Assembly: GCF_014490445.1 (NCBI RefSeq)
Contig: NZ_JACTUZ010000035.1
Coordinates: forward strand, 1 to 34,026
Source: Pseudoroseomonas ludipueritiae
Lineage (GTDB): Bacteria > Pseudomonadota > Alphaproteobacteria > Acetobacterales > Acetobacteraceae
Length of the DNA stretch: 34,026 nucleotides
Reading direction: 5' to 3'
The notes under the pieces are model-generated. The model was not told the DNA's origin. It did not search any database and saw only the letters and a program-made list of their open reading frames with translations. Position numbers and translations under genes: made by a program. This document shows, one piece after another, positions 1,995 through 32,112 of this stretch. Numbering within the stretch: the stretch's first letter is position 1; the number at the start of each line of letters is the position of its first letter.

Positions 1995-4058
1995 ATGGCC
2001 TTCCTCGCGCGGCTGCGCCGCACCATCGGGCATCAGGACCTGCTCTTCGCCGCCGCCATGGTGCTGCTGCTGGCGGTGCTGGTGCTGCCCATGCCGAGCT
2101 GGCTGGTCGATCTCGGCCTCGCCACCTCCATCACCCTCTCCGTGCTGATCCTGATGGTGGCCATCTGGATCGAGCGCCCGCTGGATTTCTCGGTCTTTCC
2201 CACCGTGCTGCTGGTGGCGACGCTGCTGCGCCTGGCGCTGAACCTGGCCACCACGCGGCTGATCCTGGCCAATGGCCATAAGGGGCTGGATGCGGCCGGC
2301 AGCGTCATCCACGGCTTTGCCGGCTTCATCGTCGGCGGCGACTTCATTATCGGCGTGATCGTCTTCGCCATCCTGATCGTGGTGAACTTCATCGTCGTCA
2401 CCAAGGGTGCCAGCCGCATCGCGGAGGTCGCCGCCCGCTTCAGCCTGGATGCCATGCCGGGCAAGCAGATGGCGATCGATGCCGATCTGGCCGCTGGCAC
2501 CATCGACGATGCCGAATCGAAGCGCCGGCGGCGGGAGCTGGAGGACGAGAACTCCTTCTTCGGCGCCATGGACGGCGCCTCGAAATTCGTCCGTGGCGAT
2601 GCCATCGCCTCCATCATCGTCACCGTGGTCAATGTGCTGGGCGGCATTGTTGTCGGCACGCTGCGGCATGGGCTGGATTTGCAGACAGCCGCCGGCAACT
2701 ACGTCACACTGGCCATCGGCGACGGCATTGTCTCGCAGATCCCCGGGCTGATCGTCTCGGTGGGCGCCGGCATGCTGGTCTCCAAGGGCAGCGTGCGCGG
2801 CTCCACGGACAAGGCCTTCATCAGCCAGTTGGGCGCCCAGCCGAAGCCGCTTTACCTGGCAGCCGGCCTTTCCATGTTGTTCGCCGTGCTGCCGGGCCTG
2901 CCCTTCCTGCCTTTCATGGCATTGGCGGGCATCGCTGCCGGCGGCGGCTGGTTCGCCCATCGTGCCGTGGAGCGCCGCGCCGCCGCGGCCGCTGCTGGCG
3001 AACCCGAACCCGACGCCGCGCCGCGCGAGGAATCCATGGCTGAGCTGATCCGCGTGGATGACGTGCGGCTGGAACTCGGCATGGGCCTGGTCTCCCTCAC
3101 CTCCGGCCGCCAGGGCAGCCTGACGGACAAGATCAAGAAGCTGCGCCGCGCCTTTGGCCTGGAATTCGGCTTCATTCTTCCGGCCGTCCGCATCAAGGAC
3201 AACATGGACCTCGGCTCCGGCGAATATTCGGTGCAGGTCCAGGGCGTGGAAGTGGCGCGGGAGACGCTGATGCTGGGCCGCGTGCTGGTTTTCGCCCCCG
3301 GCGGCCAGGAGATCGCGGTGCCCGGCATCGACACCCATGAGCCTTCCTTCAAGATCCGCGCCCGCTGGATCGAGCCGCATCTGCGCGAGGCCGCCATGGC
3401 CCAGGGCCTGACGGTGGTGGATGCCGAGACGGTGCTGACCACGCATCTCTCGGAAGTCCTGAAGGGCTATATGGCGCAGCTGCAGGGCTATGCCGCGACC
3501 CAGAAGCTGCTGGATGGATTGGAGAAGGAGCAGCAGAAGCTGGTTGCTGACCTGATCCCCGCCATTCTGCCGCTGGCGACGGTGCAGAAGGTGCTGGCCA
3601 CGCTGCTGGCGGAGCGGGTGTCCATCCGCAACCTGCCGCTGGTGCTGGAAGCCTTGCATGAGGCGGCGGGCTTCACCCGCAATGTCTCGGTGCTGACGGA
3701 ACATGTGCGCCAGCGCCTTTCGCTGCAGATCTGCCGCGGCCTGGCGCAGGAGGATGGCTATATCACCGCCATTCTTCTGTCGCCGGAATGGGAGCAGGAG
3801 GTCAGCACCGCGATCCATGAGGAAGGCGACCACCGCTCCTTCGCCATGGCGCCCAGCAAGATTCAGGAACTGGTCACCGCCACCCGCACCCGCATCGCCG
3901 AGGCAGCCGCGCGGGGCGATTGGCCGGCGGTGCTGACCTCGGCCCAGGTGCGGCCTTTCGTGCGGCACCTGGTGGAACGCATCAACCCGACCATCGCCGT
4001 CATCTCCCATGCCGAGGTGCATCAGCGCGCCAAGCTGCGCACGGTGGGCCAGATCTGA
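1995..4058 (+). CDS. flhA: FlhA, flagellar export gate protein
   Basis: FlhA forms the nonameric ring of the flagellar type III export gate, coupling proton flow to export and docking chaperone-substrate complexes. The 687-residue product has the family length. The N-terminal third to half is membrane-embedded (hydrophobic segments from about residue 17 to 325), including the FHIPEP-family stretch FSVFPTVLLVATLLRLALN and the cytoplasmic FHIPEP loop with DAMPGKQMAIDADL. A charged Ala/Glu-rich linker (about 325-350) leads to the soluble C-terminal domain (GLEFGFILPAVRIKDN onward). It sits 3 bases from both fliQ and fliR in an unbroken operon. A long open frame on the opposite strand is its shadow. 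Confidence 0.97.
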   Translation: MAFLARLRRTIGHQDLLFAAAMVLLLAVLVLPMPSWLVDLGLATSITLSVLILMVAIWIERPLDFSVFPTVLLVATLLRLALNLATTRLILANGHKGLDAAGSVIHGFAGFIVGGDFIIGVIVFAILIVVNFIVVTKGASRIAEVAARFSLDAMPGKQMAIDADLAAGTIDDAESKRRRRELEDENSFFGAMDGASKFVRGDAIASIIVTVVNVLGGIVVGTLRHGLDLQTAAGNYVTLAIGDGIVSQIPGLIVSVGAGMLVSKGSVRGSTDKAFISQLGAQPKPLYLAAGLSMLFAVLPGLPFLPFMALAGIAAGGGWFAHRAVERRAAAAAAGEPEPDAAPREESMAELIRVDDVRLELGMGLVSLTSGRQGSLTDKIKKLRRAFGLEFGFILPAVRIKDNMDLGSGEYSVQVQGVEVARETLMLGRVLVFAPGGQEIAVPGIDTHEPSFKIRARWIEPHLREAAMAQGLTVVDAETVLTTHLSEVLKGYMAQLQGYAATQKLLDGLEKEQQKLVADLIPAILPLATVQKVLATLLAERVSIRNLPLVLEALHEAAGFTRNVSVLTEHVRQRLSLQICRGLAQEDGYITAILLSPEWEQEVSTAIHEEGDHRSFAMAPSKIQELVTATRTRIAEAAARGDWPAVLTSAQVRPFVRHLVERINPTIAVISHAEVHQRAKLRTVGQI

Positions 4059-4061
4059 GGC

Positions 4062-4823
4062 ATGGACACCGCCCTGCCCCTGGCCACCTGGCTGCCAGCC
4101 GAGATCTACCGGTTGGCGCTGGTCTTCTGCCGCGTCTCGGCCGCCTTCATGCTGCTGCCCGGGCTGAGCGAGCATGCGGTGCCGGTGCGCGTGCGGCTGC
4201 TGGCCGGGCTCGCCGCCGCCCTTTGCATCGCGCCACTGGCGGGGCCGGCGACACCTGTGCCGGGCGTCTGGAGCATTCTCGGCGCCATGGTGCTGGAGGT
4301 CACCACCGGCACCCTCCTGGGCACCCTGGCGCGCCTGCTGCTGTCTGCCGTGCAGACGGCGGGGCAGATCATTGGGCAGAATATCGGCCTCAGCAATGCC
4401 TTCGTCTTTGGCGTGGGCAATGACAATGCCGCGGTGGTGGGCGCGGCGCTTTACGCCGGCGGACTGGCGGCGCTCTTCACCCTGGAAGGCCATCACAGCG
4501 GGTTACGGGCCCTGGCGGAGAGTTATGCCATGGTGCCACTGGGGGCGCCGCCGCCGCTGGCGGCCTCGGCCCAGGTGGCGACGGAGATGGCGGCGCGCGC
4601 CTTCCGCCTTGCCATGCAATTCGCCATGCCCTTCCTGGTGCTGGCCATGCTCTTCAATCTGGCCATGGCGGGCATCAACCGCGCCATGCCCGCCATGCCG
4701 GTTTTCATGATCGGCGCTCCGGCACTGCTGATGGCCGGGCTGCAGTTGCTGGCGCTGGTGTCGCCCGGCATTCTCCATGAGATCCTCGGCGCCTATGCCG
4801 AGGTGTTTGTTGTTCTCCACTGA
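4062..4823 (+). CDS. fliR: FliR, flagellar export gate membrane protein
   Basis: FliR is the third core export-gate membrane component, forming the helical pore with FliP and FliQ. The 253-residue product is highly hydrophobic with about six membrane segments. It carries the family pattern around QTAGQIIGQNIGLSNAFVFG (about 101-120), the loop after the third or fourth segment, and an N-terminal FCRVSAAFMLLPGL. Length fits the usual 250-265. It begins 3 bases after flhA, and its stop overlaps the flhB start (TGATG), a pairing common to fliR-flhB operons. Type III secretion homologues are possible by fold but not by context. Confidence 0.94.
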   Translation: MDTALPLATWLPAEIYRLALVFCRVSAAFMLLPGLSEHAVPVRVRLLAGLAAALCIAPLAGPATPVPGVWSILGAMVLEVTTGTLLGTLARLLLSAVQTAGQIIGQNIGLSNAFVFGVGNDNAAVVGAALYAGGLAALFTLEGHHSGLRALAESYAMVPLGAPPPLAASAQVATEMAARAFRLAMQFAMPFLVLAMLFNLAMAGINRAMPAMPVFMIGAPALLMAGLQLLALVSPGILHEILGAYAEVFVVLH

Positions 4824-5902
4824 TGTCGGAGGAGAGCGGCCAGGAGAAAACCCTCGACGCCTCGCCGCGCAAACTGGAGCAGGCGCGGCAGAAGGGCGAT
4901 GTTCCCGCCTCCCGCGAGGGTTCCGCCTTCGGGCTTTACGCCGCCATGCTTCTGGCCATCGGCCTGGCCGGCAGCCTGGCCATGCAGCGCATCAGCGAAG
5001 TCCTGCTGCCGCTGATCGAGCAGCCCGGGGCTTTCCTGGAGCTGAACGAGCTGGGCTACCGCGCGGCCGGCTATGCTGTCATGCAGGCTGTCGCCGTGGC
5101 GCTGCTGCCGGTCTTTGGATTGCTGATTGTGGGCGCGCTGCTGCCGCATCTGCTGCAGAACACGGTGGTCTTCTCCGGCGAGCGGCTGCGGCCCAAACTC
5201 TCGCATGTCTCGCCCATGGCGGGCCTGAAGCGTATCTTCGGGCTGAAGGCCTTGTTTGAATTCGGCAAGAACCTGCTGAAGGCCGCTGTTGTGAGCCTGG
5301 CCTGCTGGGTGGTCGGCCGCCGGTTCTACGACGACAGCGCCGGCATGGCCACGCTCGATCCTGCCGCCCTGCCGCCGATCATCTTTCATATGCTCGTCGT
5401 CGCGCTGGGGGCCATGACACTGGTGGCTGCGGTGGTGGCCGTGGTCGATATCGGCTTCCAGCGCTTCGAATACGCGCGGCGCCAGCGCATGACCTTGCAG
5501 GAAATGCGGGAAGAAATGCGCTCCACCGAGGGCGACCCGCATATCAAGGCGGCGCGGCGCAAGAAGCAGCGCCAGGGTTCGCAGCGGCGCATGATGGCCG
5601 ATGTGCCCACCGCGACGGTGGTGCTGGCCAACCCGACCCATTTTGCCGTGGCCCTGCGCTATGAACGTGGCCAGGACAATGCGCCGGTCTGCGTCGCGAA
5701 GGGCGTGGATGCGCTGGCACTGCGCATCCGTGCCCTGGCGGAGGCTTCCGGTGTGGCGGTGGTGGAGGACAAGCCGCTGGCGCGGGCGCTCTATGCCTCT
5801 GTGGAGCTGGGCGGGACCATTCCGCCGGCGCATTTCGAAGCGGTGGCCAAGGTCATCGGCATTGTCTGGGCGCAGCAGCGGCTGGCGAAGGCGCCATCAT
5901 AA
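4823..5902 (+). CDS. flhB: FlhB, export gate and substrate-specificity switch
   Basis: FlhB regulates export and, by autocleavage, switches the apparatus from rod/hook to filament substrates once FliK signals that the hook is complete. The 359-residue protein shows the N-terminal signature EKTLDASPRKLEQARQKGD, four membrane helices (about 36-58, 85-110, 150-165, 185-212) and the C-terminal autocleavage motif NPTH at residues 270-273 followed by FAVALRY. All key residues are intact, so it should be processed normally. It is translationally coupled to fliR. FliK, its functional partner, is encoded in the convergent operon 1.2 kb away. Confidence 0.96.
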   Translation: MSEESGQEKTLDASPRKLEQARQKGDVPASREGSAFGLYAAMLLAIGLAGSLAMQRISEVLLPLIEQPGAFLELNELGYRAAGYAVMQAVAVALLPVFGLLIVGALLPHLLQNTVVFSGERLRPKLSHVSPMAGLKRIFGLKALFEFGKNLLKAAVVSLACWVVGRRFYDDSAGMATLDPAALPPIIFHMLVVALGAMTLVAAVVAVVDIGFQRFEYARRQRMTLQEMREEMRSTEGDPHIKAARRKKQRQGSQRRMMADVPTATVVLANPTHFAVALRYERGQDNAPVCVAKGVDALALRIRALAEASGVAVVEDKPLARALYASVELGGTIPPAHFEAVAKVIGIVWAQQRLAKAPS

Positions 5903-18419: not shown

Positions 18420-19085
18420 ATGAGCAGAAGCCGCGGAGGGGGTCAGCGGACCATCCTGATTTCCTCACCTAAAGGGGGATCCGGAAAATCGGTTTTGGCG
18501 CGTCACCTGCTGGTAAGCGCCGCCCAGGCAGGACTGCAAAGTATTGGGCTGGACTTCGACCGCCAGCAGACTCTTACTAAGTGGAGCATGCGGCGTGCGC
18601 AGACGCGTGATGCTTTTCCTGACTTCGCTGATGTGCCGGTGGCGCCTGTGGTTCTGCAGGACTGGCGCGCCAGCCTGAGGCAGGCCAATGGCTATGACCT
18701 GGCCGTACTGGATACGCCACCTTCCGTAGAGGACCATCTTCCTGCCATCGATGGCTTGGCCCGCGCTGCCAATCTTGTTCTTGTGCCGGCTGTCTGCACA
18801 CAAGATGACGTGGAAGCTGTGGGTCCCTGGATACGCAGCCTGACAGACAAGGGCTTTCGGGCTGTGGTGGTCCTGAACCGCGCCAATCGCCGCACATCAT
18901 CCTTTGCGCGCATGCGGGGCACCTTGATCAAGGCAGGACCTGTTTGCCCGACCGAAATACCGCAGCTGGAGGATATCCACGTTCCTGCGGTGAAAGGGCT
19001 GACCCTGCTCGACTACTCCAAAAGCCGCGGTATCGCACCGTTTGAGGAGATCTGGGCCTTCGTTCGCCGGGAGATCGAGCTATGA
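18420..19085 (+). CDS. parA: ParA-family partition ATPase
   Basis: A 221-residue, short (type Ib-like) ParA ATPase without the N-terminal HTH of long ParA proteins. It would position plasmid copies by ATP-dependent nucleoid binding. The deviant Walker A KGGSGKS is at residues 18-24 with the signature lysine K18. It is followed by GLDFDRQQTLTKW (the D-x-D-x-Q-x-T-x-W type of switch I) and DTPPSVEDHLP (Walker B region). AGGGAG precedes the ATG. The stop overlaps the next gene by 4 bases (ATGA), the classic parAB arrangement. Short ParA proteins usually leave autoregulation to their partner, which fits the palindrome upstream. Confidence 0.92.
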   Translation: MSRSRGGGQRTILISSPKGGSGKSVLARHLLVSAAQAGLQSIGLDFDRQQTLTKWSMRRAQTRDAFPDFADVPVAPVVLQDWRASLRQANGYDLAVLDTPPSVEDHLPAIDGLARAANLVLVPAVCTQDDVEAVGPWIRSLTDKGFRAVVVLNRANRRTSSFARMRGTLIKAGPVCPTEIPQLEDIHVPAVKGLTLLDYSKSRGIAPFEEIWAFVRREIEL

Positions 19086-20570: not shown

Positions 20571-21580
<1,010 letters not shown>

Positions 21581-21584
<4 letters not shown>

Positions 21585-22732
21585 GGGAGCTCCCTTTGCA
21601 TTTCTGTGACGGCGGGGAAGGGCTTGGCCCAGGAAGATCCCGGGGCAGGGGCCTTGCGACGCATTGCTTCTTGCAGATGCGCCTCCAGCTCGGCAGCACG
21701 ATGCCCGGCGGTATGCTCAGCCAGGATTCGCCGCCGCGCCGCCTGGGCCATCCGCTCTCGGCACTCCGCACCGGGGGCGCGCAGCACCGAGAGAACGTCT
21801 TCGGCATCCTCGGCCAGCACGATCTCCTCGCCTGGGCGCAGCACGGTCTCGATGCCGTTCCAGATGTCGGAAATCACCGGCGCGCCGCAGGCCGCGGCCT
21901 CGAAAAGCCTGACGCTGGGGCTGTAGCCGGCCGCCACCATATCGGCGCGGGTGACGTTCAGCGTGTAGCGGCTGGCGCTGTAGAAAGCCGGGTGCTCGGA
22001 CGGGGGGACGTGGTCGAGCCGCTCTACATTGTCCGGCCACACGATCTCGGCCGGGTATTGCGGGCCCGCGACCACGAAGCGCAGGTCAGGCGCTTGGCGC
22101 GCGGGCTCCAGCAACAGGCGCTCCAGCACCGGCTGGCGGTCCGGGCTATAGGTGCCGAGGTAGGAAAGGTCCCAGCGCTTCGGGACCTCCTGCGGCTGGT
22201 AGGCCTCGGCATCCACCGAGCAATAGAGCGGCCGCGCCGCTGGGGACCCGTAGCGCTGCATCAGCAGCTCCAGCGTCGGCCCGCCGGTGAAGGAGAGATA
22301 AAGATCGTAGCCGGGGATCAGTTCCGGCGAGAGATATTCGGTGTCCCCCTGCCGCAGCTTCGCCAGCGTCACCGGCGTATCGATGTCGTAGAAGGCGGTG
22401 ATGCCACGTGCGGTGCGCTGCGCCCATTCCCCCACCGCCACGCCCTGCGGCACATAGGAGCCGACAATCACCGCATCGGCGTTCTCCACCGCCTCGCTCC
22501 ATTGATCCTGCAGCGCCTGCAGATCGGGGTAGAACTCCAGGCGGCAGAAGTCCGGCGCCGGCATGTCCCGATGCGCGGCATACCAGGGCACGTCGCGCTC
22601 CAGGAAGAGGATGCGGTGGCCGCGAGCCGCCAGCGAGCGCAGCAGCGCCCGGAAGGTGGTCGCATGTCCGTTGCCCCAGGAGGAGGAGAGGCTGAGGCCG
22701 AGGACGACGATATCGAGCGGCGTTTCCTTCAT
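21581..22732 (-). CDS. CgeB-like glycosyltransferase (paralogue 1)
   Basis: A 383-residue cytoplasmic glycosyltransferase-like protein of the CgeB / Glyco_trans_1_2 type (GT-B fold). The N-terminal part has the SSSWGNGHATTFRALLRSL motif that recurs in the next two genes. The C-terminal nucleotide-sugar site is YSASRYTLNVTRADMVAAG, then SPSVRLFEAAACGAPVISD and ETVLRPGEEIVLAED. ATG 22732 (MKETPLDIVVLGLS) is used because it overlaps the upstream gene stop by 4 bases and starts the conserved domain; the much longer frame to 23152 is a read-through of the neighbour. Substrates are unknown. Confidence 0.82.
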
Positions 22733-23823
22733 GCCGCGACGCCGTCGCGCATCGTGGCCTTCTGCCGCCGCAGCAGCATGTCCACCTCGGCGCCACGGAT
22801 GGCATAGGTATGGCCGGCGAGGATGCGCTGGCGCCCCGCCTCGCCGATGGCGCGGGCGCGCATGGGCGTCAGCGCGGCCAGTTGCTCGGCCACATCCTGG
22901 CCATCGCGCGCCACCAGAACTTCCTCGCCCTCCTTCAGGAACATCTCCAATCCGACCCAGGCATCGGTGATCAGGCAGGCGCCGGCGCCGCAGGCCTCGA
23001 AGACTCGTGTGGCGGGGGAGAAGCCGGTGCTGGCCATGCTGTCGCGGGCGATGTTCAGCACCGCCAGGGGCGAGCAATTGAAGGCGTTGTGATCCCGCGT
23101 ATAGACATGGCCGAGATGGCGCACATTCGGCGGCATCGACTTGCTCTCCCAACCATTCCCACCGATGAGAAAGTCGCGGCCGGGCAGGCGGGTTGCAGCA
23201 TCCAGGAAGAAGGTCTCAACGCGGGCTTCACGATCCGGAAGCCGGTTGCCGAGGAAGGAGAGATCGGAGGCGAAGCGCTTCTCGCGCGGCACCGGATGAT
23301 GCGTGGAAGGATCAAGCGCGTTGTAGACGGGCACGCAGCGGCGCGCGCCGAAGCCGGTATAGGCATCGATCACCGGCTGGCCGCCGCCATAGGTCAGCAC
23401 GAAGTCGAGTTGCGGCAGCACGCGGCGCAGCACATGGTCCGGTGAAGCGCCGATTTCCGCCAGTGTCGCCGGGGCGTCGACATCCCAGAAGATGCGGATG
23501 GCGCCGGGCCTGGCCGCGCGCATCACGCCTTCCAGCAGCTCTTCGTCATAGACGCCGACGCCGCTGGCCTTCACCACGACATCCGCGTCGGCGGCACGGG
23601 CAATCACATCGCGCAGCGCCGTGTCATTGGCATCATAGACCACCACGCGCGCCCATTCCGGCGGCTCGATGTCGCGGTGCTTCTGCCGGTCGAAGGCATC
23701 GGGCTCATAGAAGGTGATGTCATAGCCGCGGCCGGCGAGGTCGCGCAGCAATCCGCGGTAATAGGTCGCCGCGCCGTTCCAATAGGAGGACAGCAGGCTG
23801 GAGCCGTAAAAGGCGATCTTCAT
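22729..23823 (-). CDS. CgeB-like glycosyltransferase (paralogue 2)
   Basis: A 364-residue paralogue of its two neighbours: N-terminal FYGSSLLSSYWNGAATYYRG, a second Rossmann-like half, and C-terminal NCSPLAVLNIARDSMASTG with FSPATRVFEACGAGACLITD (the donor-binding region). RIFWDVDAPATLAEI parallels AFYDIDTPVTLAKL in paralogue 1, so the two are close relatives. Starts and ends overlap both flanking genes by 4 bases (ATGA). No membrane segment is seen, so it should act on the cytoplasmic face or in the cytosol. The acceptor is not predictable. Confidence 0.82.
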   Translation of the reverse strand: MKIAFYGSSLLSSYWNGAATYYRGLLRDLAGRGYDITFYEPDAFDRQKHRDIEPPEWARVVVYDANDTALRDVIARAADADVVVKASGVGVYDEELLEGVMRAARPGAIRIFWDVDAPATLAEIGASPDHVLRRVLPQLDFVLTYGGGQPVIDAYTGFGARRCVPVYNALDPSTHHPVPREKRFASDLSFLGNRLPDREARVETFFLDAATRLPGRDFLIGGNGWESKSMPPNVRHLGHVYTRDHNAFNCSPLAVLNIARDSMASTGFSPATRVFEACGAGACLITDAWVGLEMFLKEGEEVLVARDGQDVAEQLAALTPMRARAIGEAGRQRILAGHTYAIRGAEVDMLLRRQKATMRDGVAA

Positions 23824-24932
23824 GCGGCGGTCTCCACCAGCGTCTGGGGCCGGAGTTCGGCCAGAATGGACAAGAGTTCCTGCATCCGGTGCGCGCAGCT
23901 ATGGCGGGCGCGGATGCTCTCCAGCCCGCTCGCCACCAGGGCGGCGCGCAGGTCCGGGTCGTGTTGCAGGGCGCGCAGATGCGCCGTCATCTCCGCCGTG
24001 TCGTGGCCGACCAGGAAGTCCTGGCCTGGGCGGAAGAGATTCTCGCTGTCCTGCCAGGGCGCCGAGACCAGCGGGATGCCGCAGGCCAGGGCCTCGAAGA
24101 CCCGGATGGTCGGGATGCCGGGCAGGGTGGTGACATAGAAGCGGCGCGGCACATGCACCGTCGCCAGATGCCGCGCGAAGACCTCCGGTGCGCTGGCATT
24201 GGGCAACCAGCCGCGAAACTTCGCACCGTGGCGCTGTAAGGTTCGCAAAGCCTCGTCCGGGTAGCGCACGCCATGGATGGTCAGCGGCAGGCCCGCCTCG
24301 CGTGCTGGGCGCAGCAGCATGGATTCGATTTCTGCGCTGCGCTCGCCGTCGCCCCAATTGCCGATCCAGACCAGCCCCTCGCGCTGGCCTTCGACGGCGG
24401 GCGGGTGGAAGTGGCGGGTGTCGGCGGCCTCATGCCAGGTCCAGACACGGCCGCCCCAGCCCCAGCGGCGATAGACTTCGGACAAGGCCTCGCCGAAGGC
24501 CAGCACGCCATCATAGCCGTCGAGGTCGAAGGCGCGGATCGCCTCGGGGTCCGAGACGGCGCGGTGATGCGTATCGTGGAACAGCAGCGTGAAGCGGCCG
24601 CCATTCCGGCGCAGCCGACCCAGCGCCGCGACCAGCTTCGGCTCGTTCCATTCATGCATGATGACGAGGTCGGCATCGGCCACCACGGCCTCGCATTGCG
24701 CGAAATGGTCGAAGCGGCGCGAGGCCAGTTCCGGATAGGCGCCGCGATAGGCCTGCAGCCCTGCCGAGCCATGATCGGCCAGCAGGTTCTGCAGGCTCCA
24801 GGCGCCGGCGGGTTCCATGGCCAGCACCTCGTCGCCGCGCGCGACGAATTCCCGCAGCACGCCACGCAGGAAATGCGCGTTGCCATGGTTCCAGCAGGAT
24901 TCAAGGGAATGCGTAAAATAGACCAGCTTCAC
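23820..24932 (-). CDS. CgeB-like glycosyltransferase (paralogue 3)
   Basis: The third tandem member, 370 residues, more divergent: N-terminal FTHSLESCWNHGNAHFLRGV aligns with the WNG/WGNG motif of the other two. The C-terminal site reads YVTTLPGIPTIRVFEALACG followed by IPLVSAPWQDSENLFRPGQD, again the Glyco_trans_1_2 pattern. It has 4-base overlaps with the genes on both sides. Three adjacent paralogues suggest successive additions of sugars to one acceptor. Direction of transcription places it before paralogues 2 and 1. Confidence 0.82.
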   Translation of the reverse strand: MKLVYFTHSLESCWNHGNAHFLRGVLREFVARGDEVLAMEPAGAWSLQNLLADHGSAGLQAYRGAYPELASRRFDHFAQCEAVVADADLVIMHEWNEPKLVAALGRLRRNGGRFTLLFHDTHHRAVSDPEAIRAFDLDGYDGVLAFGEALSEVYRRWGWGGRVWTWHEAADTRHFHPPAVEGQREGLVWIGNWGDGERSAEIESMLLRPAREAGLPLTIHGVRYPDEALRTLQRHGAKFRGWLPNASAPEVFARHLATVHVPRRFYVTTLPGIPTIRVFEALACGIPLVSAPWQDSENLFRPGQDFLVGHDTAEMTAHLRALQHDPDLRAALVASGLESIRARHSCAHRMQELLSILAELRPQTLVETAA

Positions 24933-26050
24933 GCGGCGGCCTCCAGTCGGATGCGGTGCGGCAGCATGTCGCGGTAGATCGCGAGCATGCCCTCCGCCAT
25001 GGCGGCTTCGGAGTAACGGGCGGCACGTGCCTGGGCCTCGGCGCCACGCCGGGCCCGCAGGGCGGGATCGGCGGCAAGGCGGCGCAACCCGTGCAGGAAG
25101 CCGGCCTCGTCCTCCGGCACGGCGTAATCTGCGGCCTCGCCCCAGATCTCGCGGAAAGAGGGGATATCGGCCAGCAGCAGGGCACAGCCGGCCTGGGCCG
25201 CTTCCAGTACCGTCAGGCCGAAGGGCTCGTAGCGGGCGGGCGAGACGAAGATGCCAGCCCGCGCGAAGGCCTCGGCCATCTCATCGGCATTCAGCAGGCC
25301 GAGGTGATGCAGATGGGGCAGGGAGATGGCGCCGCCGCCCGGTGCGGCCAGAGGGCCTGCGACCTGGACCGGTTGGTCGAGATAGGGTGCGATGCGGTCC
25401 AGCAGGGCAATGTTCTTGGCTTCGTCCCACAGCCGCCCGGCGGCCAGGATGCCCTGGCGCTGCGCGGCGGGCGGCGCCGGCTCGGCTTGGCGGCCGTTAT
25501 GGACCACGCGCGGCGGCCGCGGCAGCCCGTAAAGCTGCGCCGTCATGGCGGCGAAGGCGGCGCTGGGAGCCACCAGCGCATGGGCGGCGCGATAGCCCTG
25601 GGCCACCATCTCCCGCTGCCAAGCCAGGTCCGGGGGCAGGGGCGTGCCGCGCATCATCGCCCACCAGCTGGCGACGCAGGAATGGCAGCCAACCAGCAGC
25701 GGCATCGTGAAGGCGCCGCCGGCGGCCAGCGTCGGGCTGTTCAGATGCACCAGTTCCGCCTGTTCCTCGGCTGCCAGTGCGGCCAGGGCTCGGCCGGCCT
25801 CCAGCAGCGTGGCGGCATCGGCGCCGGTCCAGTCCAGGGGCAGGTCGGTCAGGCGCAGGCTGGTGCCGGGAATGGACGTGGCCGCCGCGGCCTGGGCAGG
25901 GGTAGGGCGGGGCCCCAGCACGGCCAGGGTGATGGCCATTCCCCGCGCTGCCAGCCCGCGTGTCAGGTCCAGCGCATGGGTCCAGACGCCGCCTACCGCA
26001 TCCGTGGTCAGCAGGATGCGCGGCGGGGAGGCGGTCAGGGGCGGTGGCAT
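24929..26050 (-). CDS. Glycosyltransferase family 4
   Basis: A 373-residue GT-B enzyme of the GT4 type. N-terminal TTDAVGGVWTHALDLTRGLAARG (about 15-37) is the acceptor-side glycine-rich loop; the C-terminal donor site includes GRLWDEAKN and FVSPARYEPFGLTVLEAAQAG with the E-x7-E arrangement (EPFGLTVLE). It is distinct from the three CgeB-like proteins, which are shorter on this motif. It overlaps paralogue 3 by 4 bases and follows the CDP-paratose-epimerase-like gene by 31 bp, the only real gap in this part of the operon. Substrate unknown. Confidence 0.88.
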   Translation of the reverse strand: MPPPLTASPPRILLTTDAVGGVWTHALDLTRGLAARGMAITLAVLGPRPTPAQAAAATSIPGTSLRLTDLPLDWTGADAATLLEAGRALAALAAEEQAELVHLNSPTLAAGGAFTMPLLVGCHSCVASWWAMMRGTPLPPDLAWQREMVAQGYRAAHALVAPSAAFAAMTAQLYGLPRPPRVVHNGRQAEPAPPAAQRQGILAAGRLWDEAKNIALLDRIAPYLDQPVQVAGPLAAPGGGAISLPHLHHLGLLNADEMAEAFARAGIFVSPARYEPFGLTVLEAAQAGCALLLADIPSFREIWGEAADYAVPEDEAGFLHGLRRLAADPALRARRGAEAQARAARYSEAAMAEGMLAIYRDMLPHRIRLEAAA

Positions 26051-26081: not shown

Positions 26082-27179
26082 TCATGTCAACGTTTCCAGG
26101 CTGCTGTCGGCGGCCTGCAGGCCGCTTTCCTGCTCCAGCCAGCGGGCCAGGGCGGCAATGCCCTCGCGCCAGGGGCGCGGCTCGTTCAGGCCCAGCTCGC
26201 GCCGCACGGCCCTGGTGTCGGAGACGTAGTAGCGCTGGTCTCCGGCGCGCCAGTCGGCGAATTGCAGGTCCACCCGCCGGCCCAGCATCTCCTCGATCGC
26301 CGCCACAAGCTGGCGCAGGCTGATGGCATTGCCGGGGCCGCCGCCGAGGTTGAAGGCGCGGCCATGGGCGGTGCCCATGCGGCTCCAGGCATTCAGATAG
26401 GCCTCGACCGCATTGTCGACCTGCAGCACGTCGCGCACCTGCCGGCCATCGCCGAAGATGCTGATCGGCTCGCCCCGCAGGGCGCGGATCAGGAAATGCG
26501 CGACCCAGCCCTGGTCCTCCGTGCCCATCTGCCGCTGGCCATAGATGCAGCTCATGCGCAGCACGGTGGTGGGCACGCCGAAGGAACGGTCGTAGTCCAG
26601 CACATACTGGTCCGCCGCACCCTTGGAGCAGCCATAGGGCGTGTGGAAATCCAGCGGCCGGCCTTCGCCGATGCCGCTGGCGCGCAAGCCCGGGTCGACC
26701 GGCAGGTAGCAATCCTGCACCTGTTCCAGCGCCACGTCACCGAGGTCGCCATAGACCTTGTTGGTGCTGGCGAAGACCAGCGGAACCTTGCCGCCGCCGC
26801 GCTGCCGCAGCCCTTCCAGGATCAGGAAGGTGCCGCGCAGGTTGATGTCGAAATCCTCCTGCGGCGAGACGAGGCTGGTGGTCACCGCCACCTGCCCGGC
26901 GAGATGGAACACCGCCTGGGCGTCGCGCAGCGCCGTATCCACCGCGCTGGCATCGCGCACATCGGCCACCATGGTGGTGATGCGGGCCGGGTGCCGGGCC
27001 TGCAGCCAGGCCAGGTTGCGCTCGACGCCGGGCCGGGCCAGGGCATCGAAGACGATGACGTCATGACCCTGCTGCGCCAGCCGGTCAGCCAGGTTGCAGC
27101 CGATGAAGCCGGCACCGCCGGTGACCAGGACGGGCTTGCGGCCGCCGAGCGCCGGGTTGGCGATCTCGGTGCCGCTCAT
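26082..27179 (-). CDS. NAD-dependent epimerase, CDP-paratose 2-epimerase-like
   Basis: A 365-residue extended SDR. GGAGFIG is at 21-27, FASTNKVYGD at 137-145, catalytic Y182-x3-K186 in TPYGCSKGAADQY. It is followed by SCIYGQRQMGTEDQGWVAHF and ISIFGDGRQVRDVLQVDNAV, segments that closely recall CDP-paratose 2-epimerases (RfbE/Tyv). ATG 27179 gives MSGTEIAN and overlaps the upstream epimerase stop by 4 bases; the longer frame to 27257 lies inside that gene. Substrate is inferred from resemblance only; a related C2 epimerase on another NDP-sugar is possible. Confidence 0.82.
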   Translation of the reverse strand: MSGTEIANPALGGRKPVLVTGGAGFIGCNLADRLAQQGHDVIVFDALARPGVERNLAWLQARHPARITTMVADVRDASAVDTALRDAQAVFHLAGQVAVTTSLVSPQEDFDINLRGTFLILEGLRQRGGGKVPLVFASTNKVYGDLGDVALEQVQDCYLPVDPGLRASGIGEGRPLDFHTPYGCSKGAADQYVLDYDRSFGVPTTVLRMSCIYGQRQMGTEDQGWVAHFLIRALRGEPISIFGDGRQVRDVLQVDNAVEAYLNAWSRMGTAHGRAFNLGGGPGNAISLRQLVAAIEEMLGRRVDLQFADWRAGDQRYYVSDTRAVRRELGLNEPRPWREGIAALARWLEQESGLQAADSSLETLT

Positions 27180-28291
27180 GCCACCAGTCCCCGCATCTCC
27201 AGTTCCTTGCGCGCCTGCAGGACACGGTCCTCGGCCTGTTGCTGCGAGGCCACCCATTCGGCGAGTTCCGCTAGATCCTTCTGGAAATCCCGGTCCACGC
27301 GGAAGCCGAGCTCCTGCTGGATGCGGCTGATGTCGGGGATGTTGTGACGGATGTCGCCGCTGCGCGCCTTGCCCGTCATCTCCGGCCCGAGTTCCGGCCG
27401 GCCCATGGCGGCGGCGAGCGCCAGCGCAACTTCCTCCACCGTGCGGTCCTGGCCGCTGGCGACGTTATAGACCTGCCCGGCGGCCTTGGGATGTTCCAGC
27501 GCCAGGACAAAGGCCTTGGCCACATCGCCGACATGAACGAAGTCGCGGCGCTGCTGCCCGTCCTCGAAGACCATCGGGCGCTGCCGGTTCTGGATGCGGG
27601 CGGCGAAGATGGCCAGCACGCCGGTATAGGGGTTGGAGAGCGCCTGGCCCGGCCCATAGGCATTCCAGAGCCGCAGCGCCACGCCTTCCATGCCATAGGC
27701 CGGCGCCAGGGTGAGCGTCAGCCGCTCCTGCGTGTATTTGTTGATGGCATAGACCGAGGCGAGTTGCGGCCGCTTGCTTTCCGGCGTCGGCACCGGCACC
27801 AGGGGCCGCCCTTGCGTGTCCAGCGGGTCCCAGTTGGCGGCGCCGTCGCGGCGCGGGCTGCGCAGCACATCGTCATGCAGCCTGCCATCGGCGTCGCGAT
27901 ACAGGCCCTCGCCATAGATGCTCATGGAGGAGGCGACCACCACGCGGCGCACCGGCTTGTGGATGAGCTGCTGGAAGAGCACCGCGGTGCCCAGCTCATT
28001 GACCGAGACATAGCGGTCGATCGCATACATGCTCTGGCCGACGCCTACCTCGGCGGCGAGATGGATGACGCTGCCGACGCCTTCCAGCGCCCGGTTGACA
28101 GCGGCTTCGTCCCGCACGTCGCCCCGCATGAACTCCACCTCAGGGGCCAGCAATGTCGGCCCACGCCCGCCATGCACCTGGTCGATCAGGCTGTCGAGCA
28201 CCCGGACCCGGTAGCCCCGTTCCAGCAGAGCCCGTGCCACATGGCTGCCAATGAAGCCTGCGCCACCGGTGATCAGGATGGTCTCGTTCAT
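27176..28291 (-). CDS. NAD-dependent epimerase, dTDP-rhamnose 4-epimerase-like
   Basis: A 371-residue extended SDR. GGAGFIGSH is at 9-17, SSMSIYGEGLY near 121-131, catalytic Y181-x3-K185 (SVYAINKYTQER), then LRLWNAYGPGQALSNPYTGV and VFEDGQQRRDFVHVGDVA. The WNAYGPGQALSNPYTGV stretch and the insert with PVPTPESKRPQ recall proteins annotated as dTDP-L-rhamnose 4-epimerases, hence a 6-deoxysugar is a reasonable guess. ATG 28291 is used, with AAGGG upstream; the frame to 28432 is an N-terminal extension with no family match. It is the first gene of the leftward glycan operon, facing the inositol-phosphate synthase operon. Confidence 0.82.
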   Translation of the reverse strand: MNETILITGGAGFIGSHVARALLERGYRVRVLDSLIDQVHGGRGPTLLAPEVEFMRGDVRDEAAVNRALEGVGSVIHLAAEVGVGQSMYAIDRYVSVNELGTAVLFQQLIHKPVRRVVVASSMSIYGEGLYRDADGRLHDDVLRSPRRDGAANWDPLDTQGRPLVPVPTPESKRPQLASVYAINKYTQERLTLTLAPAYGMEGVALRLWNAYGPGQALSNPYTGVLAIFAARIQNRQRPMVFEDGQQRRDFVHVGDVAKAFVLALEHPKAAGQVYNVASGQDRTVEEVALALAAAMGRPELGPEMTGKARSGDIRHNIPDISRIQQELGFRVDRDFQKDLAELAEWVASQQQAEDRVLQARKELEMRGLVA

Positions 28292-28718
28292 GCCGTGGCC
28301 CTTGTCGCAGGCGCCCGCGATGCGGGCATGGAGGAAACGCCGCCCCCGCGTGGGCGCGTGGAGCAGGTAAGTAGAAGATGAACAAGAAGCTGAATGCGCG
28401 TCAGGCGTGGCAGTTGCGGCGGAGCTTGGCAAATTTCAGGACCTCTTCTCCTGCTGTGGCAAGAGAGCAACGCCGCTTTGGCGCTCACATGGCCGTGAAA
28501 GTCCTTGTGGAAAGCAGCGGGATCAAACCATCAAAAATTTATGTGTTGGCAGGATCAACTTAGAAGCTTCGCCCCGCATTGATAGCTACGCCTACGCCAG
28601 CTACTCCCGGAGGAGGCGGTGCTGCTTGGCGGCCTAGCCGCCAGCCGGCGTATCGGGCTGTCATGCAGCAAGGCCGGGAGCAAGGCTTTTCGGCGAATTC
28701 ATTGGGGATGGAGGTGTC
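28292..28718. other. Divergent promoter region between the two sugar operons
   Basis: This 427-bp spacer contains promoters for both operons but no convincing gene; a 61-codon frame at 28378-28563 (plus) has no supporting features beyond its ATG. It is locally A+T-richer (around 28525-28565). A TGGCGGC / GCCGCCA hairpin with a 3-base loop is at 28627-28643, in the leader of the inositol-phosphate synthase gene. No TGCGAAAAA element is found here. Confidence 0.5.
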
Positions 28719-29801
28719 GTGTCGGGTTCAGCATCGCTCCGCGTCGGCGTGGTCGGCGCCGGGAATTGTGCCTCCTCCTTTGTGCAGGGCCTGGCCTATT
28801 ACCGGGATGCCGGCGCGAATGAGCCGCCGCCGGGGCTGATGCATGTCGATCTCGGCGGCTACCATGTGCGCGATATCGAGATCGCCTCGGCCTTCGATGT
28901 CACCGCCGGCAAGGTCGGGCGCGATCTGTCGGAGGCGCTGACGGCCCATCCCAACAACACGCACCAATTCGCCGCCTTGCCGCCCAGTGGCGTGCAGGTG
29001 CATCGCGGCCCCACGCTGGATGGCCTCGGCACCTATCTGCGGCAGGATCTGGAGGAAGCCGAGGCGCCGGTGGCCGATGTGGCCGAGGTGCTGCGGGAGA
29101 GCCGTACGGATGTGCTGGTCTCCTACCTGCCGGTGGGTTCCCAGCAGGCTTCCGAATATTATGCCGAGCAGGCGCTGAAGGCCGGCTGCGCTTTCGTCAA
29201 TTGCATCCCTGTCTTCATCGCCTCCAATCCCGACTGGCGGAAGCGCTTCGAGGAGCGCAACCTTCCCATCATCGGCGACGACATCAAGAGCCAGGTCGGC
29301 GCCACCATCGTGCACCGCGTGCTGGCCAATCTCTTCCGTGAGCGCGGCGTGCGCATCGATCGCACCTACCAGTTGAATTTCGGCGGCAATGCCGATTTCA
29401 AGAACATGCTGGAGCGCGAGCGGCTGGAATCCAAGAAGATCTCCAAGACCCAGGCGGTGACCAGCCAGTTCGACGTGCCGCTGGATGCCGACAATGTTCA
29501 TGTCGGCCCCAGCGATTTCGTGCCCTGGCTGACCGACCGGAAATGGGCGCAGATCCGCATCGAGGGCACCAGCTTCGGCGGCATGCCGTTGAACCTGGAG
29601 TTGAAGCTGGAAGTCTGGGATTCACCCAATTCCGCCGGCATCGTGATCGACGCCGTGCGCTGCGCCAAGCTGGCGCTGGACCGCGGCATCGGCGGCGCGC
29701 TGACGGCGCCTTCCTCCTATTTCATGAAGTCGCCGCCGCAGCAGTTCACTGACAGCGAGGCGCGCGAGCGCACCATGCGCTTCATCCAGGGGCTGGACTG
29801 A
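28719..29801 (+). CDS. Myo-inositol-1-phosphate (inositol-3-phosphate) synthase
   Basis: A 360-residue NAD-dependent enzyme that converts glucose 6-phosphate to inositol phosphate, the first step of inositol formation. Recognised segments: [17 protein letters not shown] (9-25), [58 protein letters not shown] and [13 protein letters not shown], the conserved core of INO1 in the short, actinobacterial/archaeal-like form. A GTG start at 28719 follows GGAGGT at short spacing; no ATG is in frame upstream. It heads a rightward operon. Inositol may be a sugar acceptor or a product component, since its neighbours are glycan genes. Confidence 0.93.
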
Positions 29802-29811
29802 CGCCGGCTCC

Positions 29812-30438
29812 ATGGCCCTGACTCTGTTCCTGCTGCGGCATGCGGCGCATGACCGCGTGGGCGACCTGCTCTGTGGCCGGATGCCCGGGGTGGCGCTGGG
29901 TGAAGCTGGCCGCTGGCAGGCAGCGCGGCTGGCCCGGCGCTTCGCGCCCGGGGCGCTGGATGCGCTCTATACCAGCCCCGTGCAGCGCTGCCGCGAAACC
30001 ACAGCCCCACTGGGTGCCTCCTGCGGCCTGGAGCCCGGCATTCTGCCGGAGGCCGAGGAAGTGGATTTCGGCGCCTGGACTGGCAGCCGCTTCGCCGCGC
30101 TGGAGGAGGACCCGCATTGGCGGGCCTGGAACCACAGCCGCGACACCGCCGCCGCCCCAGGAGGCGAGGGGATGGCGGCGGTGCGGGCGCGCGTGCAGGC
30201 GCTGCTGGCGGTGCTGCGGGCGCGGCATCCTGAAGGGCGCGTCGCCCTGGTCAGCCATGCCGAGATCATCCGCACCGCTATCCTGGAGGTCCTGGGCCTG
30301 CCTTTGCAGGCCTATGAGCGGCTGGAGGTCAGCCCGGCCTCCATCAGCGCCCTGGCGCTCTGGCCCGGCGGCGGGCGGGTGCTGGGGCTGAACGATGTGG
30401 CGCATCTCGCCGATACGGAAGAAGGGGAAACGGCATGA
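29812..30438 (+). CDS. Histidine phosphatase family protein
   Basis: A 208-residue phosphoglycerate-mutase-like phosphatase. The LLRHA motif puts the phospho-accepting histidine at residue 10, with a second pocket histidine in LVSHAEIIR (H149), SPVQRCRET (arginine) and [10 protein letters not shown] (the acid/base Glu). The order and motifs resemble broad-specificity phosphatases such as CobC/GpmB types. It starts 10 bp after the inositol-phosphate synthase and overlaps the methyltransferase start by 4 bases. A reasonable but unproven guess is that it removes the phosphate from the synthase product or from a later glycoside phosphate. Confidence 0.88.
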
Positions 30439-31202
30439 GCCAGCGGCCGTCACAGGATGCGATCCGCGCCGGCGCGACCGCGCTGGGCGATTGGTTCCAC
30501 AATATCGACCTGCATGGCGTCTGGACCGCGCCGGACCACCCGCTGGGCAATCATCCCGGCCAGTTCTGGCAGCATTTTTCCCATGTGCTACCGGCCGACA
30601 TGACCGGCATGAGCGTGCTCGATATCGGCTGCAACGGCGGCTTCTATTCCATCGAGATGAAGCGGCGCGGCGCCGCGCGGGTGCTCGGCATCGACCATGA
30701 CGAGACCTATCTGGAACAGGCCCGCTTCGCCGCCCGCACCCTGGCCCAGGACATCGAGTTCCGCCGCATGGAGGTCTATGACGTCGGCGCGCTGGGTGAG
30801 CGCTTTGACCTCGTGATCTTCCTCGGCGTGCTCTACCACCTGCGCCACCCGCTGCTGGCGCTGGACCTGATCCACGAGCATGTCGCCAAGGACCTGCTGC
30901 TGTTCCAGTGCATGCAGCGCGGGACCACCGAGGTGGCGCCGGTGGCCGAGGATTACCCCTTCACCGATGCCGCGCCCTTCGAGGCAGCCGGCTTCCCGCG
31001 GCTGCAGTTCATCGAGCACCGCTATGCCGGCGACCTGACCAACTGGTGGGTGCCCAACCGTGCCTGCGCCGAGGCCATGCTGCGCAACACCGGCTTCGAG
31101 ATCCTGCAGAACCCGGACCCCGAGGTCTATCTCTGCCGCCGCACCGCCCCTGCCTATGGGGCCGCCGCCGTCTACCCTGCCCGCGGCCCTGGCGCCGTCT
31201 GA
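30435..31202 (+). CDS. SAM-dependent methyltransferase, CmoB-like
   Basis: A 255-residue class I methyltransferase. Motif I is VLDIGCNGGFYSIEM (61-75) with the acidic IDHDE at 86-90 ending strand 2. GVLYHLRHPLLALD (131-144) is the motif IV/V region that recalls CmoB-type enzymes, and GNHPGQFWQHFSHVLP near 38-53 resembles the CmoB N-terminal part. I believe it belongs to the TIGR04290 family (memory, not searched). It is too short for CmoB itself. The gene overlaps the phosphatase by 4 bases and is followed 22 bp later by the glycosidase, so it probably methylates a sugar, a cyclitol or a glycan. Confidence 0.85.
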   Translation: MSQRPSQDAIRAGATALGDWFHNIDLHGVWTAPDHPLGNHPGQFWQHFSHVLPADMTGMSVLDIGCNGGFYSIEMKRRGAARVLGIDHDETYLEQARFAARTLAQDIEFRRMEVYDVGALGERFDLVIFLGVLYHLRHPLLALDLIHEHVAKDLLLFQCMQRGTTEVAPVAEDYPFTDAAPFEAAGFPRLQFIEHRYAGDLTNWWVPNRACAEAMLRNTGFEILQNPDPEVYLCRRTAPAYGAAAVYPARGPGAV

Positions 31203-31224
31203 CTGACAAGGACATTCCGCCCCG

Positions 31225-32112
31225 ATGATGACTTCGGCGATGATCTGGAACGAGCCCAACAACAAGTCCCATTGGGACCCGGAGGTGGACCCGGACTGGG
31301 TAATCTTCGCGGAAACGGCGCGAATGGCCGGGGAGGCGGTGCGGGCGGAGAGCAGCCAGGTCACCCGCGTGCTGGGCGGCATGTCGCCGATCGACCCGGT
31401 CTTCATCATGAAGATGGCGCAGCGCGGCGTGCTGGAGCAAATGGACGCCGTGGCCGTGCACGGCTTCCCGCTGGACTGGAACCTCTGGCCCATCGACCAC
31501 TGGCCGGCCAAGCTGGACGAGATCAAGGCTGTGACGGACCTGCCCATCTGGGTCTCCGAAGTGGGCGTATCCTCCTTCGGCTCGGAGGAGGTGCAGGCCT
31601 GGGGCGTCAACAAGACCGCCGGGCTGCTGAAGGGCTTGGCGCCGCGCATCCTCTGGTACAGCCTCTTCGACCTGCCCAGCAGCTGGGAAGCCACGACGCG
31701 GCACCGGGAGGCCGAGGGTTCCTCCTACTACCGCCACTTCTACATGGGCCTCGTGCGGGAAGACGGCACGCCCAAGCCCTCGCTGGAGCAGTTTGCCCAG
31801 CACGCGCCGGACCTGGGCATCTGCCAGTGGTTCCATTTCGAGGACCACCGGCTGGACGATGCCGTGACCTGGCTGAAGCGCCTGGGCGTGAAGCATCTGC
31901 GCACCGGCATTTCCTGGGCCGACAGCTACCGCCCCAATGCCCTGGCCTGGTTCGACCGGCAGATGGAGGCGCTGGCGGATTTCGACGTCACCGTCACCTT
32001 CTGCTTCACGCCGGAACACCGTGGCATCGCCCCGCACCACACCAGCGCGCCGCAGGTGGTGGAGGAATTCGCCTCCTTCTGCGCCAGCATGACGCGGCGT
32101 TACGCGAGCTGA
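31225..32112 (+). CDS. Glycoside hydrolase-like protein with circularly permuted TIM barrel
   Basis: A 295-residue clan-A glycosidase-like protein, of the kind annotated beta-xylosidase next to CmoB-like methyltransferases. Acid/base Glu10 is in IWNEPNN (7-13), nearly at the N-terminus; nucleophile Glu112 in LPIWVSEVGVSSFG; barrel strand LWYSLFDL at 143-150. Yet the elements that normally come before the acid/base strand are at the C-terminus: GVKHLRTGISWADSYRP (221-237), then WFDRQMEAL and VTVTFCFTPEH, ending at MTRRYAS. The usual order would run RRYAS into the WNEPN strand. No upstream coding space remains, so the domain is permuted or is two partial barrels. No signal peptide is present, suggesting cytoplasmic action. 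Confidence 0.75.
   Translation: MMTSAMIWNEPNNKSHWDPEVDPDWVIFAETARMAGEAVRAESSQVTRVLGGMSPIDPVFIMKMAQRGVLEQMDAVAVHGFPLDWNLWPIDHWPAKLDEIKAVTDLPIWVSEVGVSSFGSEEVQAWGVNKTAGLLKGLAPRILWYSLFDLPSSWEATTRHREAEGSSYYRHFYMGLVREDGTPKPSLEQFAQHAPDLGICQWFHFEDHRLDDAVTWLKRLGVKHLRTGISWADSYRPNALAWFDRQMEALADFDVTVTFCFTPEHRGIAPHHTSAPQVVEEFASFCASMTRRYAS

Follow-up and report, generated by a model that had tools for sequence, protein, structure and literature searches.

A clan GH-A-type glycosidase with a circularly permuted barrel, predicted in an alphaproteobacterial glycan biosynthesis cluster

Introduction

Among solved proteins, the closest relative of the enzyme considered here is PslG, the endoglycosidase of the Psl cluster, which is encoded among glycosyltransferases, carries a signal peptide and has a periplasmic form (PMC11912335). 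A second enzyme of a comparable setting, the methylmannose polysaccharide hydrolase MmpH, is encoded with methyltransferases and a glycosyltransferase, and serves to recycle a methylated glycan within the cell (PMC9883506). In clan GH-H, glycosidase barrels with a natural circular permutation are known from the GH70 glucansucrases (PMC11299179) and from GH13 MalS (PMC10223318), and the TIM barrels of transaldolase and class I aldolase are related by a circular permutation with a shift of two units (PMC2213659). For clan GH-A, we found no circular permutation in the open-licence papers that we searched.

Here we analyze a gene of Pseudoroseomonas ludipueritiae whose product, pGH, appears to be such a case. 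It lies in a stretch of 34,026 nucleotides, the whole of which we refer to as the window.

Results

The pGH gene and its reading frame

The gene and the parts of its product are located as follows.

31225..32112, plus strand: pGH, predicted circularly permuted glycosidase of 295 residues (open frame; sequence, profile and AF2 evidence)
31225..31806, plus strand: residues 1-194, predicted barrel strands 4-8, which come second in a standard-order barrel (match columns 104-290 of the standard-order profile)
31810..32109, plus strand: residues 196-295, predicted barrel strands 1-3, which come first in a standard-order barrel (in genome G315 their match precedes that of residues 3-184 in one frame)
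31252..31254, plus strand: codon of the predicted acid/base residue, E10 (conserved in all 63 sequences; aligns with the WNEPN Glu of PslG)
31558..31560, plus strand: codon of the predicted nucleophile, E112 (conserved in all 63 sequences; aligns with the WSTEWG Glu of PslG)

The open frame spans 301 codons, and the protein begins with MMTSAMIWNEPNNKSHW, which contains W8-N9-E10-P11-N12; we take this WNEPN to be the strand-4 motif of clan GH-A. E112 lies in PIWVSEVG (WVSEVG) and is followed by RILWYSLFDLP at residues 141-151, with ILWYS at about 142-146. The C-terminal motifs are GICQWFHF (197-204), GVKHLRTG (221-228) and VTVTFCFTP (255-263), and the chain ends in RRYAS (291-295). The frame is closed 21 bases ahead of the start by a TGA at 31204-31206, just past the stop of the methyltransferase gene, which bars a longer start, so that no N-terminus is missing.

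Our scan of genome contigs found at least 580 stretches encoding a pGH relative, of which we retained the best 80 (72-98% identity). Among these, 79 align from residue 1, starting with ATG in 70 and GTG in 9, and one (L040) aligns from residue 2 only; ten of the 80 have an in-frame stop no more than ten codons upstream. The initial annotation had read the protein from its sequence as carrying the acid/base motif at residue 10, a nucleophile motif at 112 and an end at RRYAS, with no space for a missing N-terminus, and each of these points holds for the 295-residue frame, the last of them through the TGA and the shared start. The check it had proposed, whether all relatives share the break, came out positive for those examined in the permuted clade.

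In public records the relatives are named beta-xylosidase, glycosyl hydrolase or hypothetical protein. A Pfam hit of pGH, to Glyco_hydro_cc over residues 5-120 (E 0.026), covers no more than the part with strands 4-7, and its 14.5 bits against a cut-off of 21 illustrate how family models that depend on strand order nearly miss the protein. No match to pGH was found in the phage collection searched, nor any exact match in the window to the EcfG-type promoter motif, for which 0.45 matches were expected.

Strand order and rotation tests

An AF2 model built from an alignment with 63 relatives (pLDDT 86.2, pTM 0.88) has eight strands in the order 4-5-6-7-8-1-2-3, with strands 1-3 at residues 198-260 and strand 1 assigned by DSSP to 198-200; a model from the single sequence reached a pLDDT of 53 and was discarded. 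Foldseek and VIA-align put the whole model on TIM barrels, with residues 1-295 superposed on complete ones; both are sequential methods to which a shift by three strands is invisible. Designed barrels, GH84, GH20 and KDO8P synthase headed the fold-search lists and were not accepted as relatives. Among 50 VIA-align rows we recognized what we take to be clan GH-A entries, the GH5-type endoglucanases 1h1n, 7r2d and 8zi5. Neither search names GH39, an absence that, with sequential methods, excludes nothing.

We also compared rotated with unrotated sequence. When pGH was rotated in 5-residue steps and scored against 11 standard-order domains, the optimum fell at a rotation of 190-195 in 10 of them, with local scores of 326-381 rotated versus 217-255 unrotated. 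The eleventh domain (L127), which is split over two frames, scored 291 versus 259. Fifty shuffled sequences, scored against L121 only, gave a mean of 38 and a maximum of 54, so that the rotated scores stand above chance. In pairwise form, the rotated sequence scored higher in 656 of 656 pairs (41 permuted by 16 standard-order sequences), with a median gain of 104 and a minimum of 72. Profile comparison by hhalign of the same eight permuted sequences with nine standard-order domains extended from 179 columns (score 218.7) unrotated to 279 columns (score 322.6) after rotation near residue 195, and larger sequence sets gave the same picture.

The gene of G315 offers a direct view of the standard order: within one frame of 703 codons, the match to residues 196-295 comes first and that to residues 3-184 follows six bases on, and G265 has the same order. 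Thus, the N-terminal part of pGH matches the C-terminal part of its standard-order homologues and the reverse. Similarly, the profile of the same eight sequences matched PslG in the PDB at 2.9e-6 over residues 3-185 unrotated and at 2.4e-11 over 5-283 rotated. No remnant of a tandem duplication (residues 191-295 or 1-195 outside pGH) was detected at E 0.01 in the 80 loci.

Overall, the sequence comparisons and the model support a genuine circular permutation of a (beta/alpha)8 barrel, with the fold kept in the permuted chain. The initial annotation had proposed exactly such a TIM barrel and suggested comparison of a rearranged sequence, which proved positive against both the standard-order homologues and PslG; the outcome it had named as contrary, a standard strand order with an independent C-terminal domain, was not seen in the AF2 model, where all eight strands form one barrel. 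Its placement of strands 1-3 at residues 221-265 was right for GVKHLRTG and VTVTFCFTP and too narrow in range, since strand 1 (197-204) has moved as well and the displaced part covers about 196-295.

Active site and family

The 63 pGH sequences share six residues without exception, namely N9, E10, H79, E112, W144 and R226. In the model, N9-E10 follow the strand formed by residues 4-7, at the end of barrel strand 4, and E112 ends the strand of residues 108-113, barrel strand 7, as in clan GH-A. Both catalytic glutamates are present in 131 of 132 loci, a set that includes several loci of the same gene, and the remaining locus is cut by its own end. The HMMER alignment to PslG places E10 on the Glu of WNEPN and E112 on the Glu of WSTEWG, 111 residues apart; we assume these to be the catalytic E165 and E276 of PslG. 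The invariant residues fit what would be a retaining clan GH-A active site, from which pGH is predicted to be active with retention of configuration.

As for the family, the rotated profile retrieved PslG, a GH39 member, as the sole significant full-length solved relative in the PDB, while a single pGH sequence gave no match there by phmmer. The GH39 Pfam model hit 5 of 63 unrotated members without significance (best 0.064), and the order 4-5-6-7-8-1-2-3 differs from the standard strand order of GH39. The Cellulase (GH5) model hit 2 of 9 rotated members (best 0.0016) and 4 of 63 unrotated ones (best 0.14). Of the two folds that had been put forward for comparison, GH39 and GH5, it is the former that contains the nearest solved relative, PslG; pGH itself is a candidate member of GH39.

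By inspection, pGH has no leader ahead of its first strand. Because of this, and because its standard-order homologue is fused to an NAD-dependent enzyme (see below), pGH is probably cytoplasmic; the cytoplasmic location first suggested from the lack of a signal peptide has gained support from the fusion.

The gene cluster and its standard-order versions

In the window, pGH sits in a glycan biosynthesis cluster, where glycosyltransferase, epimerase and methyltransferase genes are adjacent.

30435..31202, plus strand: TIGR04290 family methyltransferase, directly upstream of pGH (366.7 bits, cut-off 300)
29812..30438, plus strand: histidine phosphatase family protein (PF00300)
28719..29801, plus strand: inositol-3-phosphate synthase-like protein (PF01658; TIGR03450 at 534 bits, below the cut-off of 638)
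27176..28432, minus strand: EpiA, NAD-dependent epimerase family, true start probably later (PF01370; 55-62% identity to EpiA of five standard-order clusters)
26082..27257, minus strand: EpiB, NAD-dependent epimerase family, true start probably later (PF01370; homologue of the epimerase half of the fusions)
24929..26050, minus strand: glycosyltransferase GT4_a (PF13439)
23820..24932, minus strand: glycosyltransferase GT_b (PF13524)
22729..23823, minus strand: glycosyltransferase GT_c (PF13524)
21581..22747, minus strand: glycosyltransferase GT_d, start chosen, longer frame open (PF13524)
20571..21584, minus strand: NAD-dependent epimerase family, counterparts annotated as UDP-glucuronic acid decarboxylase (PF01370; 83% identity to the annotated Roseomonas marmotae gene)

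Elsewhere in the window lie flagellar export genes of the FHIPEP and FlhB families (1995-5902), a gene for replication initiator protein A (PF10134; 14661-15959, minus strand) and one for a ParA-like ATPase (18420-19085, plus strand). With the last two genes on it, this contig is possibly a plasmid or a chromid.

Near the best 80 permuted loci, counted with identity thresholds of our choosing in 6 kb flanks, several of them shortened by contig ends, we found the inositol-3-phosphate synthase at 76, the TIGR04290 methyltransferase at 75 and the histidine phosphatase at 67; the pGH loci of S. meliloti have no TIGR04290 gene nearby. At nine loci (L007, L010, L011, L015, L017, L020, L031, L044 and L045), EpiA, EpiB, GT4_a and GT_b lie on the same strand directly upstream of the methyltransferase-pGH pair, with the inositol synthase gene divergent. 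Literature searches for TIGR04290, the cluster, the S. meliloti locus tags (which we had guessed) and the fusion returned nothing relevant.

Standard-order versions of the domain occur as fusions, in which the reading frame continues from the glycosidase domain into an EpiB-like NAD-dependent epimerase; each of the 23 fused loci checked, whether intact or decayed, has this architecture. EpiB of the window is 53-61% identical to the epimerase half of 15 intact fusions, in the same frame. On plasmids, five loci that carry standard-order fusions (L105, L121, L123, L124 and L126) contain counterparts of EpiA (55-62%), EpiB (56-61%), the four glycosyltransferases, the decarboxylase-like gene and the TIGR04290 methyltransferase; inositol-3-phosphate synthase and histidine phosphatase are absent from the compared stretches of these loci. 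The layout is the same in G540, G412 and G482, the stretch of G540 stopping ahead of any methyltransferase. The clusters with the permuted or the standard-order form are thus orthologous. In two standard-order clusters an annotated B12-binding radical SAM protein of the TIGR04295 family lies between the fusion and the glycosyltransferases (L121, 13683-14981; L123, 13689-14984), and on the Xanthomonas sacchari plasmid NZ_CP010410.1 (L127) the fusion gene is split into two frames by a frameshift or a sequencing error.

TIGR03450 had no match in the seven standard-order genomes searched; it matched all of the eight permuted genomes except G528, as well as the Rhizobium sp. CB3090 plasmid, none of the matches, that of the window included, reaching the curated cut-off. 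The permuted form may accordingly be associated with an inositol-containing product.

Distribution and phylogeny

A search of 398 genomes from the phylum gave matches in 19, of which 12 have the permuted form (that of the window included), two the standard-order form and five weaker glycosidases. A rotated query against 385 genomes of the class matched 15, namely eight permuted (again including the window's own), six standard-order and one weak, where two pieces in swapped order were called permuted and a single piece standard-order. The best 80 relatives also include, by name, Peristeroidobacter and Steroidobacter, which we take to be Gammaproteobacteria. No standard-order copy was found in the window's own genome.

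In a tree of permuted and intact standard-order sequences, the two forms separate with support of 100/100, neither nested in the other. When outgroups and decayed domains were added, the permuted group again fell on one side of a branch (SH-aLRT 93), with very long outgroup branches. The permuted forms are therefore one clade among the sequences sampled. By parsimony the permuted order is derived, because PslG and the outgroups have the standard order.

Decay of the fused domain

The main cluster of G710 contains a fused domain without the WNEPN motif and without the strand-7 Glu, and a group of inositol synthase, phosphatase, methyltransferase and pGH genes lies about 447 kb away. Searching 82 genomes of the order of G710, we found 38 matching genomes: six with decayed fused domains, two with intact fusions (G788 and G817), 22 more whose loci are permuted and eight without a locus, left unclassified. 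Besides G710, the decayed domains belong to G820, G821, G822, G819 and G745. At these loci (L155, L163-L166 and L169) the fused domain lacks loops and at least one of the two catalytic glutamates, and the epimerase half is retained; G819 keeps the strand-7 Glu, and the weakest domain, L169, matched the decayed query at 1.5e-15 and the intact domain at 1.4e-4.

Each of the six genomes whose fused domain has decayed carries pGH (66-74% identity), and pGH is absent from G788 and G817 and, with seven other genomes, from nine of nine intact-fusion genomes. The fused domain has thus decayed in a lineage carrying pGH. Because the decayed domains form one clade in the tree, where the intact L167 joins them on long branches, the six genomes count as one event. 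Replacement is not strict, since a plasmid of Rhizobium sp. CB3090 (1363002-1379448; L128) carries an intact fusion and pGH about 15 kb apart, each with both catalytic residues.

Discussion

On balance, we think it probable that pGH is a family-wide permuted, PslG-like retaining beta-glycosidase of clan GH-A that works in the cytoplasm, trimming or recycling the glycan of its own cluster. It would be a complete single-domain (beta/alpha)8 barrel of the clan GH-A type, closest to PslG, with E10 on strand 4 as the acid/base and E112 on strand 7 as the nucleophile, cleaving a beta-glycoside with retention by double displacement. In the cytoplasm it would act in one pathway with the epimerases, the four glycosyltransferases and the TIGR04290 methyltransferase, on a glycan or glycoside that the cluster enzymes make. 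Its counterpart in other versions of the cluster is the standard-order domain fused ahead of EpiB. What the comparisons show is the permutation, a single permuted clade among the sequences sampled, conservation of the catalytic residues, the orthology of the clusters and the decay of the fused domain in a pGH-carrying lineage; activity, retention, location and the trimming role are deduced.

The main rival, to which we give a minor but real share of belief, is that pGH is a permuted transglycosidase, moving a glycosyl unit to an acceptor, perhaps inositol or a methylated form of it. The retaining active site expected from E10 and E112 would suit such an enzyme, as would a biosynthetic cluster with an inositol-3-phosphate synthase gene near most of the best loci and a TIGR03450 match in permuted rather than standard-order genomes. 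However, we found no feature specific to transfer, and PslG, the nearest solved relative, is a hydrolase (PMC11912335).

It is improbable that pGH lacks catalysis, as a permuted pseudoenzyme or a subunit that binds glycans. In six genomes the standard-order domain of the fusion has become non-catalytic by decay, so the fold can persist without activity, but pGH is the intact copy where that domain decays, and both its glutamates are invariant along with N9, H79, W144 and R226.

We regard as very improbable an ancestral permuted order, with the standard order of the fusions secondary: the two forms are sister groups and the root falls on very long branches, but PslG and the outgroups have the standard order, and a return to the standard order would need to recover that of the clan exactly. 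Scarcely credible, finally, is a standard-order or truncated protein whose first third is lost or misannotated and whose last 100 residues form a domain of their own, for although family models detect only the part with strands 4-7, the upstream stop and shared start leave no room for more, and residues 196-295 match strands 1-3 of the homologues and are placed by AF2 in the same barrel.

Returning to the permuted beta-glycosidase, we hold the following history to be an even call: the permutation arose once, yielding an active enzyme, free-standing and cytoplasmic, that spread among Alphaproteobacteria together with the inositol-3-phosphate synthase and methyltransferase and took over from the fused standard-order domain, which decayed or was lost. 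Permuted, standard-order and decayed versions of one domain in orthologous clusters constitute a natural experiment in which what an enzyme gains by permutation can be tested directly, and pGH marks a widespread biosynthetic cluster.

Compared with known systems, pGH resembles PslG (GH39; PDB 5bx9 and 4zn2) in its aligned catalytic Glu pair and in being encoded among glycosyltransferases, whereas PslG has the standard strand order, a signal peptide, a periplasmic form and another cluster. The fusions of Rhizobium, Tistrella and Geminicoccaceae, annotated as NAD-dependent epimerase, share with pGH a homologous barrel (about 31-33% identity) and an orthologous cluster; they differ in their standard strand order, in their fusion to EpiB and in having no inositol-3-phosphate synthase in the five loci compared. 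To MmpH, an alpha-endomannosidase, the likeness is one of role only, by analogy. The permuted GH70 and GH13 MalS barrels belong to another clan and fold lineage and are multi-domain alpha-glucan enzymes, and transaldolase and class I aldolase are non-glycosidases, the shift in pGH being one of three units. If our reading is true, pGH would be the first circular permutation described in clan GH-A, as far as the open-licence papers that we searched show, an enzyme of this clan that was re-threaded and yet kept by evolution.
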